Program-made: the position numbers and the translations under genes
Assembly: GCA_016188965.1 (NCBI GenBank)
Contig: JACPGT010000005.1
Span: 1-64,000, forward strand
Origin: Microcaldota archaeon
GTDB lineage: Archaea > Micrarchaeota > Micrarchaeia > Norongarragalinales > Norongarragalinaceae
Length of the DNA stretch: 64,000 bases
Reading direction: 5' to 3'
Notes under the pieces: generated by a model
What the model saw: the letters and a program-made list of their open reading frames with translations, nothing else
Database searches by the model: none
What the model was told of the DNA's origin: nothing
Part shown: one piece after another, positions 12 to 48,975 of the stretch
Layout of the letters: the number at the start of each line of letters is the position of its first letter
How positions within the stretch are numbered: the first letter of the stretch is position 1

Positions 12-420
12 GGGCCGGCCGAAGGCCGGCCCACGCGCCGCTGGACACATCACGAAAAACAAACAAAAAGAACGGTGCTTTTAGCTCCGATTCATCTGCG
101 GGCTAAAGCCCGCAGTATTCTCGGCTCTAAACCCATAAAAAGGACGAGCGGGCGCTAGAAAAAAAATGGAAGATTGAGGCGGCCGGAGCCGTAGCCCGCT
201 TTCTGTTGTCCACGGCATTCGACTAAGCGGCACAAAGGCCTTGCATCCCCCAGCCGACGGCGCGTTTCATCCGCATTCTTCCAACGTCAGAGGACTTCAT
301 CCTGTACGAAAGAAGCGGTATCGTTTCTGTTCCGCCGGTCGCGCCTTAAACGCGGAGCCTTGCGACTCAAGGGTTAAGCACAGCAACCGTTGGGTTGCGA
401 TCGGCGACGAACGCCGATCG
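12..420. repeat. Dispersed 9-bp-stem hairpins: 12-32 (GGGCCGGCC-GAA-GGCCGGCCC), 96-115 (CTGCGGGCT-AA-AGCCCGCAG), 398-420 (CGATCGGCG-ACGAA-CGCCGATCG)
   Basis: Perfect inverted repeats read directly; stems all 9 bp with different sequences. Confidence 0.75.
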
Positions 421-589
421 TTTCGCTTAAATGAGCGGAGCTTCCTCAGCCACCCGGGTTTTGAATCCGGGCTACCGACAGCCGTGCACTCCGCCGCCTC
501 AAACAAATGATGCCGAAACCGGCTTAAAAACGCGACGAAAGCCTCCCGCGAATTCGAGCGCTAATCCGAGGGGGAAATCAAGAGGACAT

Positions 590-810
590 CACAACTCCGT
601 CGGGAGTTGTGTAGCTCACACAAATCCATCCGGATTTGTGATAACCGTGACCGTGCAAGTCCACGAGGGACTTGCGGGTCTTGCAAACTATGCGAGGTTT
701 GCAAGGCCACACAAAACCCGAAAGGTTTTGTGATGACCCACAGAAGCCAAGGCTTCTGTGCGGAAACTGAAATAGGGAAGTGGTTGCCGACGGTCAAGCA
801 AGACCGTCGG
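590..810. repeat. Array of seven consecutive short hairpins with unrelated stems
   Basis: 590-611, 619-640, 654-676, 680-705, 710-732, 739-760, 787-810; stems about 9 bp, loops 4-8 nt, first six at about 29-nt spacing. Confidence 0.85.
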
Positions 811-881
811 TTGCTTCCGTGCCCTTGCAGTTCCGGTTGAGAAAAAATCAACTCAAACAATATAAATATATTGAATATATT

Positions 882-30404: not shown

Positions 30405-30743
30405 GACGATGCTCCGCTCGGCCTTCCAAAAGAAAAAGAATTTGGAATGCAAGCGCGGAAAAAGTGTATTTTTCGAGCGGTTGTAGGAGAGAACGAGATT
30501 CACAAACGGCGTTAGTGCCACGAGGAATCAAAAGTTGGCCTTTAGTAACGGTTCGCTGAAACCATCGCTTGCGCTTTGGCCGTACACGTCCGTCCTATCA
30601 AACCCGTCTGCTACGGGCGACCTAAGCAGTCTCGTTTTGGGAATGGCTTCGCCCTTAGATGCTTTCAGGACTTATCCAAAAGCGCGTAGCTACCCGGCGT
30701 CCTTGTAAAGAACCGGTAAACCAGAGGCGCCGATTCCCCGTTC

Positions 30744-30925
30744 ATCGAGTAGAAAATTCCACCCGTAAACGGAAAATGTAAAGTTCCATCTCTCTTAAGC
30801 CGTTTCCTCCAAAGCTGAACTCCGCACGACTGTTGACATTCTTTCATCCAATAAAGTCGGAATGCCATCCGTCGGCGTATCAAAACAACGCGTTAGGAAA
30901 ACGCGTGCCGCCTTGTAGAAAACGT
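30744..30925 (-). other. ~182-nt insertion in the 23S sarcin-ricin loop (H95)
   Basis: Flanks GGTTCCCTAAGTAC and GAACGGGGAATCGGCG preserve H95; GAGAG missing; 8-nt direct repeats near ends. Confidence 0.7.
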
Positions 30926-31648
30926 GTACTTAGGGAACCTTACCCTCAGACTGCAATGCACTCCTAGGAGATGCCACCGAACTGTCTCGCAACGTTCTGA
31001 ACCCAACTAACGTGGGTCTTTAATGGATGAACAACCCAACCCTTGGCGGCTCCTGCACCGCCAGGATGACCCGAGCCGATAGCGATGTACCAAACCGCGT
31101 GGTCGATATGAACTCTCGCACGCGACAAGCCTGTTACCCCCGGGGTAGCTTGTCTGTCAGAACAGGGTCCCATCAACGGACACACTGTTGTTCGTTAAGC
31201 CCCACTTTCGTGCCGGCGACCCATTTTGTTAAGATCACCATCAGTCCGACGTTTGTCTTTAACCCTCTACATCCGATTTCTGACCGGATTGAGTCGAACT
31301 TTGGGCGCCTTTGTTATTTTATCGAAGGCGTACCGCCCCAGTCAAACCGCCCACCTGCCGCTGTCCTCTCCAGAAGGAGAGTAAGCAACGCAGTCAAAAA
31401 ATAGCAGTGTCACACTTTCGCCTATTCGGCCCCCGGAAGGACCGACATGACGGCTCCTGCTTACGCTTTGATCCTCCAACCGTGTCACAACAACAGGCTG
31501 CGGTTAAGCTCCACGGGGTCTTCGTTTCCCCCTAGGAATCCCCGGCATGTTCACCGAGTAGTAGGTTCACCAGGTTCAAGACAGGGACAGTGGGACGCGC
31601 GTTACGCCATTCATGCAAGCCGCCAATTAAGCGGCGAGGTATTACGCT

Positions 31649-32390
31649 CAATTTGTTACTCATCCTAAAAAGCGGATGGAACGGGCCATTTCTGCCCATT
31701 TCCGACACATCGCTGTGCGGATCGGACTATATCTTCAACGCTTCAGCGAAACCGATGGTCCTTACGACCATCGGCAACCACCGTTGCGTTGTCTAGCGTA
31801 TAGTCTCTGAGGATTCTAGATACGCTGGAACGGGTTTACGATTCATCATGGAGATGATGCGAGCGATTTGGTCCAATCCTTCTTGAGTCAAATGCCGTTT
31901 TTCATTCATCATAGAGATGACCTCGGCAAACAATTCGAAGTTTTTCCGCTTCGACGTCTGCAAAGGATGGCGTTGAAAAAACCGAATCAAATGATTCAGA
32001 TTTTCCAAGCCGCGAACGCGAAACTCTTTGCGGTCACCGTTGTTGACGGTAACCGTCCCGAATCCGAAATAATCCCGGATTCGGAAAAGCACGCGTTCGT
32101 CCCGTTGATGTTGAACGACACGAAACTCTGGAAGAACGGTCCAGCCCAAAGTCATTTTCTCCAGCCGGTTAAGACTGATGTGAAAACAACCTTCTCCATC
32201 GACAAATCCCACGATCCAAGACGGATCTAGCCTTTCCTGCTGATTGCCTGCACTCATCGCGTTGTCACCAACGACCATAGACCGAATCCGAACTTTTTAA
32301 GGCTCGGACACGTCGTGGCCGGTGGTAGCGTGAGATTCTACCAGGGTTTCCAGCATATAGCTAGATTTTACTAAGGCAAGCTTTTGGTTT
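31649..32390 (-). other. Putative group I intron in 23S rRNA at the L1923-type site (CTTAAGGT^AGCG)
   Basis: P1 CUUAAGGU/GCCUUAG with terminal U.G, terminal intron G, motifs UAUGCUGGAAA, CUCAGAGACUAUACG, GAAGAUAUAGUCC. Confidence 0.88.
31793..32257 (-). CDS. LAGLIDADG homing endonuclease in the 23S intron (single motif, I-CreI-like)
   Basis: WIVGFVDGEGCFHIS; LIRFFQRHPLQTSKRKNFELFAEVISMMNEKRHLTQEGL. Confidence 0.9.
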   Translation of the reverse strand: MSAGNQQERLDPSWIVGFVDGEGCFHISLNRLEKMTLGWTVLPEFRVVQHQRDERVLFRIRDYFGFGTVTVNNGDRKEFRVRGLENLNHLIRFFQRHPLQTSKRKNFELFAEVISMMNEKRHLTQEGLDQIARIISMMNRKPVPAYLESSETIR

Positions 32391-34342
32391 ACCTTAAGAG
32401 AGTCAGAGTTACTCCCGCTCTTTACCAGTCCTTCGCTCCCTTGAAAAGGAGTTTGAGATACTAGCAGTGAGCAGGCGTCGGCCTCTGTACACAGCGTTTC
32501 CACGTCGCAGAGACCTATGTTTTTGGTAAACAGTCGACGTCCCCTTGTTACTGAGACCTACGAATCCTCCAAAGATAAATCTCGGGAAAAAACGTAGGCA
32601 CCCCTTATACCGAAGGCACGGGGCTAACTTGCCGATTTCCCTTGTCTTGATTCTCCTGACACGCCTTAGCTTTTTCTGCTAGGGGCACCTGTACTGGTTC
32701 TTGGTACGGACACACTCGATCGAATACGCACCCTTTTCATGGACTTTGGGATTCAAACCAACCTTGCGGCCATTCGCCACTTGCGCCAATGCTCCTCGCA
32801 ATGAGACTTCTCGGCGGTATTTGGCTTGGACAGAATACATCTGCTGGATTTATCCCCAAGCGTCGGATGCGTACCTTGCGTTGCCGCGTCTACGAATGTG
32901 GTAGGCGAATGTTAACGCCTTTCCCTTTCCCCTACACGGTTACGTTACGGGTTAGGACCGACTGACTCTGGGCCGACAAACGTTGCCCAGAAACCCTTGC
33001 CCTTCCGGCGTCCAGGATTCTCACCTGGAATAGCTGCTACTAGCACCAAGATCTTCATTACAACCCGGTCCACAGGAACTCACGCCCCTGCTTCGACCCC
33101 GGCTGTACGCCCATCTACTCAATTTGTGTCCCTTCGGACACATTGCCCACGTATCGGTGAATGGCTTGAGTCCCGACAGTTTACGATGCTCTGAATCTCA
33201 ATGGATCCGCTGTTACGCGTTGTTTAAAGGATGGCAGCTTCTGTTCCTACCTCTCCACTGTCTACGATTCGAAACATCTTGAGTTTACACTTAGCCATTA
33301 CTTTGGGACCTTAACGTGAGTACGGGTCGTTCCCCCCTCGGGACGCGCGCTTAACTCGCGCCCCCAACTCCCACCGTCTACGGCGGCATGAACTTCGGAG
33401 TTTGACAAGGTGGTGAGGGATTTCTCCCCCGCTCCACCAAATCGGTGGCTCTACATCATGCCAACCTCGGGTGAGGCTGAACTGCGGTTCACTTCGATGG
33501 GAACCCGCTATCGCCAAGCTCGAATGACCTATCATAGACCAATACGGGTGACGGGCTTTCACCATCCGGATGGACGGCTGCACCCTGCTCGCGCTTAGAT
33601 CGCTTTGGCTTCGGGTCTTAAGACAGTGACTTGCCGCCCATGAAGACGGCATCCCTGGGTCCTTGCGGACTTGCGGATTTTTGCTTTCGCTGTGCGCAAT
33701 GCTCGCCACGGCCTTAAACTCCTTGGCCCTTGCTTCAAGAAGAATGACGCAACCCTGTTGCCCTTGCGGGCCCTTTGGGGCCGCGTCTTCGCTGTCACCA
33801 TTCAATTTCAGGCACTTTGAACTGCCCTTTCGGGCTGCTTTTCAGTTTTCCCTCGCGGTACGTCTGTTCGCTATCGGTCTTGGGGTATATTTAGCGTTGG
33901 AAGTTAATACTCCCGACTTTATGTGCCCAAACCAGGACACACTACTCTGGAACGTCCTCCACGCCTGCACTTCTTCGCCTACCGGGCTATCACCGTCTAT
34001 GACGGAGTTTTCCAACTCACTTCAGCTCGAAGACCTGCGCTAAAAAGAACGCCCAAACACCACATCTCTACCTGCCTTGCGGCAGGGATTCGGTTTGCGC
34101 TGATCCACTTTCGGTCGCCCTACTGATGGAATCTCGTTGATTTCTTTTCCTCCTCCTACTAAGATATTTCAATTCAGAGGGTTTCCGCCTCTCTCGAGGC
34201 AATTCGGGGATCCCCGGTTCGCAGGATGCATGCTCCTCGCCGGGGCTTATCGCAGCTTGCCACGCCCTTCTTCGGTACCCAAGCCCAACCATCCACTGAA
34301 TGGTGTGTAGCTTTACTACTCCTCGTGAACTAATGCCGATTA

Positions 34343-34742
34343 CAGCAAACTAAAAGTTTGCTGCTTGGTAAGACCTACATGGCCTTACCAAGTGCATTTC
34401 GTTCTCTGCCTACAACCGCTTCACGAAAACACTCCCTCTTGAGCGAAGCGGTGGTCAAAACGACCATCGCATCCACCTTAAAGAAGAAATCCGCGCTTGA
34501 TTCTGGATTCCGTCCCCGCAAGCGGGCGACGTTTGGTCCAAAACTGCGGAAAAACGACTTGCGCCGCCTTCCCAATTGCCAGAAACGGTTTTGAAGCCGT
34601 TTCCAACACTTGAATTTTTCTTTTTACAACCCATCTGATTCGCGCGCATTTGGCTTTTCGTTTGGCGCGACCAGCTTTTCTTTTTCGCAACGCTCGCAAA
34701 CCCGAACGGTTTGCGGCGCCCAGCAAACGCCGGAGCGTTTGC
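34343..34742. repeat. Cluster of seven hairpins with mostly 9-bp stems in the tRNA-Ala/23S spacer
   Basis: 34343-34363, 34364-34392, 34448-34470, 34511-34531, 34582-34603, 34694-34716, 34723-34742. Confidence 0.75.
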
Positions 34743-34763
34743 CCGGGAAAGAAAAGTTGGGCA

Positions 34764-35056: not shown

Positions 35057-35802
35057 CACGTATGGTCTCCATGTCGCCATGGGGCGTGGACTATATCACC
35101 ATCTTAAGGATATTTTGCTTGACTGGATGTCGAGAACCAATCTTCTTTGCAAAGTCCGAGTAGGACTTGCAGCTCAAAAAGAATCGCCAATAATCGGGAT
35201 CCTTTTTTCGGCTCGGATTGTGAACCGCTCCACAAATGATTCCGAGTTCTTCCAAGAACATTTTCACTTCTTCCAAATCTTTTCGGTTTTTTTGGCAAAA
35301 GTAAATGTACATTCTTGAACCGTTGAGCGGCACGCTTCCTTCCGCATCGAAGTATCCTCGAATATAGTCGATTTTATCCTGGTTTGAAAAAACTTCAACT
35401 CCGGTCAAAACCGATTTCGAAAATTCGACGATGTAGACGTTACGACTGGTTCCTTCTTTGTAAACCCACGCGCGATAACCCAAATTACGAATCATTTCCG
35501 CTAAATCACGGACATATGATTCATGTTTTTGGGCGATCCGATACGTGTGCTTCGCTTCGAAGCCATCGTGAAGCGCACCAAGCAGATAGGATTTGGACAT
35601 CCGTCGCACCTTAAGAGCTCTGCGTGTAGTCTCTGAGGGGTCAACCGACTTTAAGAACCTTACAAGGGCTCTTGGCCGGTGACTTCCCTGCTGATTGACC
35701 CCACCCAAACCGTTGCCAGTTTGGGATCCTCGGGTTTTTCCAGCATACAGCAAAGTTTTACCGTTCTCCTCGCGGAAAACGGGTCGCAACAACTCTCATT
35801 TT
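35057..35802 (-). other. Putative group I intron in 16S rRNA after U1498-equivalent (GTCGT^AACAAGG)
   Basis: P1 GUCGU/GCGAC with U.G, terminal G, motifs UAUGCUGGAAAAACCC, CUCAGAGACUACACG, GAUAUAGUCC. Confidence 0.88.
35091..35600 (-). CDS. LAGLIDADG homing endonuclease in the 16S intron (two motifs)
   Basis: YLLGALHDGFEAKH and YIRGYFDAEGSVPL. Confidence 0.88.
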   Translation of the reverse strand: MSKSYLLGALHDGFEAKHTYRIAQKHESYVRDLAEMIRNLGYRAWVYKEGTSRNVYIVEFSKSVLTGVEVFSNQDKIDYIRGYFDAEGSVPLNGSRMYIYFCQKNRKDLEEVKMFLEELGIICGAVHNPSRKKDPDYWRFFLSCKSYSDFAKKIGSRHPVKQNILKMVI

Positions 35803-48593: not shown

Positions 48594-48684
48594 GAACAGG
48601 CGTAACCGCTGGGCCTATTTAAAACGAAGCCATGCCGAACATCCCAAAAAAAACGGGTGCAGGGAGTGGGATGGGTGTGGGCCA

Positions 48685-48707
48685 TACAATTTCCTGACGA
48701 AATTGTG
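48685..48707. repeat. 9-bp-stem hairpin TACAATTTC-CTGAC-GAAATTGTG
   Basis: 8 Watson-Crick pairs plus one T.G. Confidence 0.5.
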
Positions 48708-48749
48708 ATGTCCTCCGGCTCCCCCGAACTAGTGCGCGAATAAAAAAAA

Positions 48750-48888
48750 TGCAGGGAGTGGGAATCTCCGAACCTGTTCTTTTGGTGAAGCTTTTCTTTG
48801 CGAAAGAAAAGGTTCATTTGAACCCACGAACTCGCTAGGAGGCGAGGCCCTAAACCTCGTGCATTTGGCCAAGCTTTGCTATCCCTGC
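48750..48888 (-). tRNA. tRNA-Leu(UAG) with a 53-nt intron in the T-loop (48764-48816)
   Basis: GCAGGGA/TCCCTGC acceptor, CGAGG-TTTAGGG-CCTCG anticodon arm, GTGGG-TTCAAA|intron|T-CCCAC T-arm. Confidence 0.9.
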
Positions 48889-48975
48889 GTCAGGAATCTG
48901 CCCGGGGCCGTTAAAGAAAGTTTGGAAGAAAGGAAAACGGGAAAAATGAGCGGCAAAAAAGTGAGGAAAAGAAAT

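Follow-up and report, generated by a model that had tools for sequence, protein, structure and literature searches.

A hairpin array beside an archaeal RNase P RNA gene is one copy of a dispersed, modular family of non-coding elements, many of them flanked by duplicated gene ends

The DNA analyzed here (“the window”) is a 64,000-nucleotide stretch, positions 1 to 64,000 of contig JACPGT010000005.1 from a Microcaldota archaeon (assembly GCA_016188965.1). Near its start, the spacer between an RNase P RNA gene (179-497, minus strand) and a vapBC-like locus holds seven perfect hairpins, in an array that adjoins the RNase P RNA gene directly upstream. An earlier reading of the letters alone (the “sequence-only reading”) made no mention of RNase P and placed the array upstream of the vapBC-like locus. 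That position is correct, but the array is not a solitary feature of the vapBC locus. It belongs to a dispersed family and is missing from the same spacer in a sister genome. The VapC-like PIN protein encoded at 1147-1445 is short (∼100 residues if TTG is the start codon), and its coding sequence begins before the VapB-like gene has ended. Contigs C15, C21, C20 and C12 end in sequence that matches part of positions 1-141; this repeat is a probable cause of assembly breaks. All genomes used for comparison are metagenome assemblies or drafts; the window's own genome (G000) is a MAG, 89% complete, which falls in the Micrarchaeota by a TFB search.

Stems of at least 8 bp were counted between positions 580 and 820. 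Seven were found, whereas 2,000 dinucleotide shuffles averaged 0.034 and never gave more than 2; the array is thus as real as had been proposed. The constant geometry described in the sequence-only reading holds for the stems (8-10 bp) and loops (2-8 nt). The periodicity is confined to the first six hairpins, which are spaced by ∼26-36 nt; hairpin 7 stands apart, as part of a separate module. The stems had been called unrelated in sequence, which is incorrect: four of the seven (hairpins 1, 2, 5 and 6) have the foot CACA..TGTG in common, and hairpins 3 and 4 have GCAA..TTGC. The array is itself composite, with hairpins 1-2 forming one recurring unit and hairpins 3-6 another (Table 1). A search of 590-810 against 4,227 Rfam families returned no match, and no identical direct repeats with unique spacers of the CRISPR type were found in positions 1-1500.

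Table 1. Parts of the composite element in the window, and the comparisons on which each assignment is based.
Feature	Positions	Strand	Comparison
Composite type B element in full, chassis plus nested hairpins	548..836	+	Alignment to the syntenic G002 spacer ends ∼540 and resumes ∼833; left boundary approximate
Type B chassis, left part GAGGGGGAAATCAAGAGGAC; elsewhere GAGGGGGAATCCGGAGGAC	568..587	+	Compared with C4:71250, C1:386889, G001 L252 and G002 L253
Hairpin 1, CACAACTCC/GGAGTTGTG, opens the two-hairpin unit	590..611	+	Homologues with paired changes at C4:71260, C15:75588, C1:128318, window 48669-48715 and G002 C68
Hairpin 2, CACAAATCC/GGATTTGTG, closes the two-hairpin unit	619..640	+	Two-hairpin unit (hairpins 1-2) also at C4:71260 and C15:75588
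Hairpin 3, GCAAGTCC/GGACTTGC, opens the four-hairpin unit	655..675	+	Four-hairpin unit (hairpins 3-6) again at C17:143364 and G002 C68
Hairpin 4, GGTCTTGCAAAC/GTTTGCAAGGCC	677..708, core 680-705	+	Covariation in eight-copy alignment
Hairpin 5, CACAAAACC/GGTTTTGTG	710..732	+	Covariation in eight-copy alignment
Hairpin 6, CACAGAAGCC/GGCTTCTGTG	739..760	+	Covariation in eight-copy alignment
Type B chassis, middle part CGGAAACTGAAATAGGG; elsewhere CGTGAAACTGAAGGGGG	761..777	+	Comparison with other copies
Hairpin 7 module, core CCGACGGTC 787-795 / GACCGTCGG 802-810	774..824	+	94% identity to C12:14914-14965; hairpin 7 alone at C12:14914, C1:45652 and C1:128376
Type B end TTGCAGTTCCGG; elsewhere TGCGGTTCCGG	825..836	+	Adjoins duplicated gene end in other copies

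A DNA search with the array gave 14 matches in its own genome (the array itself included) and more in G002, a genome of the same genus. When the own genome was scanned for hairpins, 13 clusters of three or more were found versus none in a Markov control, and the observation therefore survives both the shuffling and the search. Under a stricter gap limit, the scan gave 36 clusters of at least two, versus 6-8 in the control. The window array is the biggest of the own-genome clusters, and the sister genomes contain further ones. In addition to the recurrences listed in Table 1, units related to hairpins 3-6 lie at C15:176, C1:371480, C13:66638 and C4:97897. G022, which belongs to another family, has a hairpin array that is related but not the same. 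On these sequence comparisons, the array is one instance of a dispersed, modular family of non-coding elements with a few chassis types.

The order of parts in the type B chassis, to which the window copy belongs, is CCGGAGGA-[hairpins]-CGTGAAACTG-GGGGG..CCCCC-GCGGTTCCGG. Type A begins with GGTCGCCCCGGGG, and types C, D and E begin with GGATCCCCGGG, GACCACCCAGGGG and GGTCGCCTTTTC, respectively. Between zero and seven hairpins are nested per element, and one and the same chassis can carry none, two or more. The four-hairpin unit (hairpins 3-6) also occurs in another chassis, which is palindromic (TATAGCAA..TTGCTATA). In G008, from another genus of the same family, the type B hairpins differ in sequence and the insertion point is identical. 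That genome also holds at least five near-identical type B elements with differing neighbor sequences (L254, L258-L261), the most recently active copies seen. Exact type A and type B patterns matched G000, G001, G002 and G008 among 29 genomes of the order; because such patterns miss most known copies, absence from the other genomes should be considered weak evidence. Elsewhere in the window, tRNA-Ala in the 16S-23S spacer is followed by a two-hairpin type E element (34678-34763, minus strand).

In G002, the RNase P RNA gene, a spacer and the vapBC-like genes occur in the same order. Homology between the two genomes stops at ∼540 of the window and restarts at ∼833, and none of the hairpin and chassis sequences tested was found within the shorter G002 spacer. 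Given this presence in one genome and absence in the other, insertion in the window lineage would be the simpler reading, with loss in G002 as the alternative.

Whether the fold or the sequence is kept was assessed with eight homologous copies of hairpins 4-6. Changes on both sides of the stem were seen at 8 of 24 pairs, and the covariation score was 0.305, versus 0.123 for shuffled alignments and at most 0.097 when pairing partners were slid. Together, the paired changes and the covariation indicate that the fold is kept while the sequence changes. These homologous hairpins, from the own genome and from G002, together with the G008 elements described above, bear out the earlier suggestion that structure is retained over sequence. 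Among copies, the foot alone is shared and the stem tops vary, with covariation between the two sides, so the palindrome is not conserved in sequence as it would be in REP or REPIN elements; the sequence-only reading had set the array apart from both CRISPR and REP, in agreement with the tests run here. Mismatches in 559 stem pairs comprised 8 G-T and 5 A-C, few counts with no clear wobble excess. Such an excess was considered as a sign of folded RNA over DNA and was dropped, the numbers being too few.

The flanks of many elements are direct repeats of a gene end. In a blind scan for short-range duplications, 102 merged pairs were found versus 2 in a Markov control. At 40 loci or more, counted by inspection with repeat-protein genes left out, a gene end is duplicated around a small non-coding insert. 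Duplicated ends are 18-68 bp long and come from protein or tRNA genes, and inserts measure 45-220 bp. By our reading of the translations, targets include TFB, two PPS-like genes and SufB, as well as several tRNAs (at either end), and those hit at the 5′ end include a NAC-like gene, a HAD-like gene, ThiI and TrpG. The outer edge of the duplication is a start codon, a stop codon or the end of a tRNA or terminator, and it lies at the gene terminus even where the two copies are identical (34/34 at C1:38909 and 29/29 at C12:24752). On the inside, one precise element end (GGTCGCC.. and variants) adjoins the inner edge of the orphan copy, the one separated from its gene. The inner insertion points have no sequence motif in common.

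A duplicated flank was present at 18/24 type A, 8/21 type B, 3/4 type C, 3/3 type D and 3/3 type E motifs, compared with 7/600 random positions, and the pattern also occurs in G001, G002 and G008. Some genes have been hit repeatedly at different inner points (TFB in G000 and G001, TrpG in G000 and G002). In G000, TFB has three copies of its gene end with two elements between them, a tandem accretion; in G001, the TFB 3′ end has its own insertion, a hairpin-less element whose inner edge differs slightly. The other readable Micrarchaeota loci, a few of which were in unsuitable orientation, showed no duplication of the TFB end. Note that no convincing gene-end duplication was found at the window copy itself, where the best flank match is 15 nt, so that its mode of arrival is inferred from relatives of the element. 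A SufB-like gene of G000 (C21:5245-7860, L050) contains an intein with a LAGLIDADG domain, and its 3′ end has a hairpin element with a gene-end duplication. A tRNA-Leu in the window (48735-48895, minus strand; anticodon TAG, by eye) appears to carry an insert of ∼50 nt in its T-loop, after which come part of a hairpin element and a second copy of the tRNA 3′ end; ARAGORN did not report a tRNA-Leu there.

Differences between in-gene and orphan copies were counted in 20 pairs, hand-picked from nucleotide-level duplications, using the reading frame with the fewest stops and the best identity. These pairs differ by 97.5 synonymous and 27.5 nonsynonymous changes (pN/pS 0.08). The nonsynonymous fraction is 0.22, whereas a neutral orphan should show at least 0.39 (p = 5e-5); this value should be considered indicative, due to the hand-picking of pairs and the counting of differences as independent. 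At two loci in G001, the copies are identical over 30 and 38 bp and then have synonymous last codons and a different stop (TTGCGTTGA/CTTCGGTAG; CAATAG/CAGTGA). Because the divergence is mostly synonymous, the orphan copies, and with them both gene-end copies, look like recently working gene ends. When both were compared with relatives to tell which is the foreign one, synonymous sites were saturated; one copy apparently derives from a different strain. A foreign gene end brought in by the element would be simpler than selection acting on orphans, and it is preferred for this reason and due to its precedent in fungal mitochondria (PMC3630166).

Candidate drivers were sought in the own genome, where no match to a TnpB-like gene (PF07282) or a reverse transcriptase (PF00078) was found in the 89% that is covered. 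Two tyrosine recombinases are present, one with an element ∼5 kb away (at ThiI) and the other with no element nearby. Duplicated ends 450-5,000 bp apart and enclosing an ORF, as an autonomous copy would have, were not found in G000 or in the portion of G001 that was searched (one third, to 385 kb). LAGLIDADG genes, several of which are present in the own genome, are equally common in relatives that gave no match to the chassis patterns, and thus single out no driver. The LAGLIDADG gene of the window and another at C4:112621, beside a tRNA 3′ end, are near hairpins, as are many tRNAs. As an autonomous partner, LAGLIDADG genes were rejected for being common in all relatives, and TnpB and reverse transcriptase for want of a match in this genome.

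What can be read from the sequence itself is the dispersed modular family, the array-less sister spacer, the precise end at the orphan copy and the synonymous divergence. These features suggest selfish DNA that copies gene ends together with itself as it spreads. With somewhat better than even confidence, we propose that the hairpins of the array are cargo of a mobile, non-coding type B element, from a family resident in a few Micrarchaeota genomes, and that this element spreads at gene ends through DNA break repair or one-sided homologous recombination. The element would pass from cell to cell by one of these two routes. A recipient gene broken near its end would be repaired from a donor gene that carries the element, and repair would copy the donor gene end together with the element. 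On the far side, the junction would form at the precise element end, and the gene end that the recipient had before would become the orphan. Because the gene is restored, insertions at gene termini would survive. The hairpins would be the folded DNA (or RNA) of the element, serving to define or cut its precise end or to stall replication, and would not be a regulatory leader of vapBC. A bolder version of this proposal is tentative, and we hold it to be rather doubtful: that these elements are a new class of selfish DNA, protein-less and with interchangeable hairpins, that spreads between archaeal species via homologous recombination, carrying a working gene end so that the host gene stays unbroken, while the hairpins supply the precise break or stop.

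Other explanations were weighed. The elements could be MITE-like transposons, moved in trans by a transposase or recombinase, whose target-site duplications at gene ends are unusually long and variable. The defined element end, the direct flanking duplications, the high copy number and the two tyrosine recombinases would all agree with this. The duplications, however, lack the fixed short length of those left by a classical MITE or transposon remnant, ranging from 18 to 68 bp, and their outer edge falls at a start codon, stop codon or transcript end. Since, in addition, copies differ synonymously, types A and B have no terminal inverted repeat (by eye) and there is no common target motif, this explanation is considered unlikely. 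Still less probable is a structured RNA, in which the array would serve vapBC or RNase P as a long leader or as a non-coding RNA, acting in cis or as a protein-binding ladder of hairpins. Its stable folds, covariation and intergenic position upstream of both vapB and RNase P are as expected of an RNA, but G002 has kept RNase P and vapBC with a spacer that has no array, and the same hairpin units adjoin unrelated genes. Element orientation relative to the host gene also differs between 5′ and 3′ insertions, no Rfam family matches and wobble pairs are in no clear excess.

Very little probability is given to splicing by the archaeal bulge-helix-bulge endonuclease, in which the elements would be introns or twintrons and the duplicated gene end would serve as an alternative 3′ exon. 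Against it, the in-gene copy already has its stop codon or acceptor stem and is complete, 5′-end insertions leave an intact real gene, and many gene-end copies come from protein genes; the points in its favor are that several elements come after tRNA T-arms and that both gene-end copies look constrained. Tandem duplication, with growth of hairpins by replication slippage or template switching and no mobility at all, can hardly be credited, because chassis and hairpin units are spread over unrelated loci and genera and the orphan copies have diverged synonymously. Duplicated ends do lie side by side, and inverted repeats are generally known to be prone to template switching.

Recombinational spread at gene ends, the reading preferred above, has partial counterparts elsewhere. 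Prophages such as e14 in icd, which rebuild the 3′ end of the gene they enter, are large, encode their own tyrosine integrase and use one site each; the element supplies the in-gene end, which may differ synonymously, and the old end becomes an orphan. The archaeal elements would resemble them in both respects, the in-gene end being element-supplied under our proposal and the old end an orphan. REP and REPIN elements of bacteria are dispersed extragenic palindromes, non-autonomous and of high copy number, and REPINs consist of two conserved REP palindromes tied to a RAYT transposase. The archaeal elements differ from REPINs in their variable stems, their arrays of up to seven hairpins and their insertion with gene ends. 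REP and REPIN elements count among the nearest counterparts (PMC3116915).

The DHE and RHE elements of organelles (Allomyces DHE, yeast GC clusters and sponge RHE) are described as short, dispersed, ORF-less perfect hairpins whose stems vary among elements while the fold is kept (PMC2800124, PMC4478555). The archaeal elements are alike in all of this: short, ORF-less, hairpin-bearing and present in many dispersed copies. At the window site they also vary in presence between close relatives, as DHE and RHE do. Unlike these, they nest their hairpins in a larger chassis with a precise end, and the rRNAs and RNase P RNA of the window are archaeal, not mitochondrial; gene-end duplication is not given as a hallmark of the organelle elements in the passages cited (PMC2800124, PMC4478555). 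The closest precedent is provided by the mORFs of fungal mitochondria. These homing endonuclease elements replace 3′ gene ends (Allomyces atp6; Glomus atp6, atp9, cox2 and nad3), such that C-terminal ends are swapped for synonymously diverged foreign copies (PMC3630166). There too, a gene end lies on both sides of the insert, the old end is orphaned and the in-gene copy can be a foreign homologue with mostly synonymous differences (PMC3630166). Duplicated gene ends with mostly synonymous differences are found across the archaeal family, though not at the window copy. An mORF carrier encodes a LAGLIDADG or GIY-YIG endonuclease and hits few genes (PMC3630166); the archaeal carrier is a 45-220 bp, ORF-less hairpin element, found at 40 or more loci per genome, including 5′ ends and tRNAs. 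Membership in either class is not claimed, since DHE and RHE are defined in mitochondria and mORFs by an endonuclease ORF that is missing here. Nothing matching such elements in Micrarchaeota or DPANN was found in the open-licence literature.

Gene-end replacement by mobile elements has been described for some prophages and for a small number of genes in fungal mitochondria, in each case with a dedicated enzyme. Here it would apparently affect at least 40 genes of one small archaeal genome, with gene-less carriers of ∼45-220 bp. If true, this would be a route by which ORF-less DNA spreads between species, and many host genes would carry foreign ends, which could mislead gene phylogenies and gene calling. 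It would also offer a natural collection of alleles with which to ask what hairpin DNA does in recombination.

The rRNA genes of the window have features of their own. A LAGLIDADG ORF (35091-35792, minus strand) lies within the 16S rRNA gene near its 3′ end, apparently in an rRNA intron. The 23S rRNA match (30523-34320, minus strand) spans 3,798 bases versus 2,987 positions in the model, and because of this excess length introns are probably present there as well.
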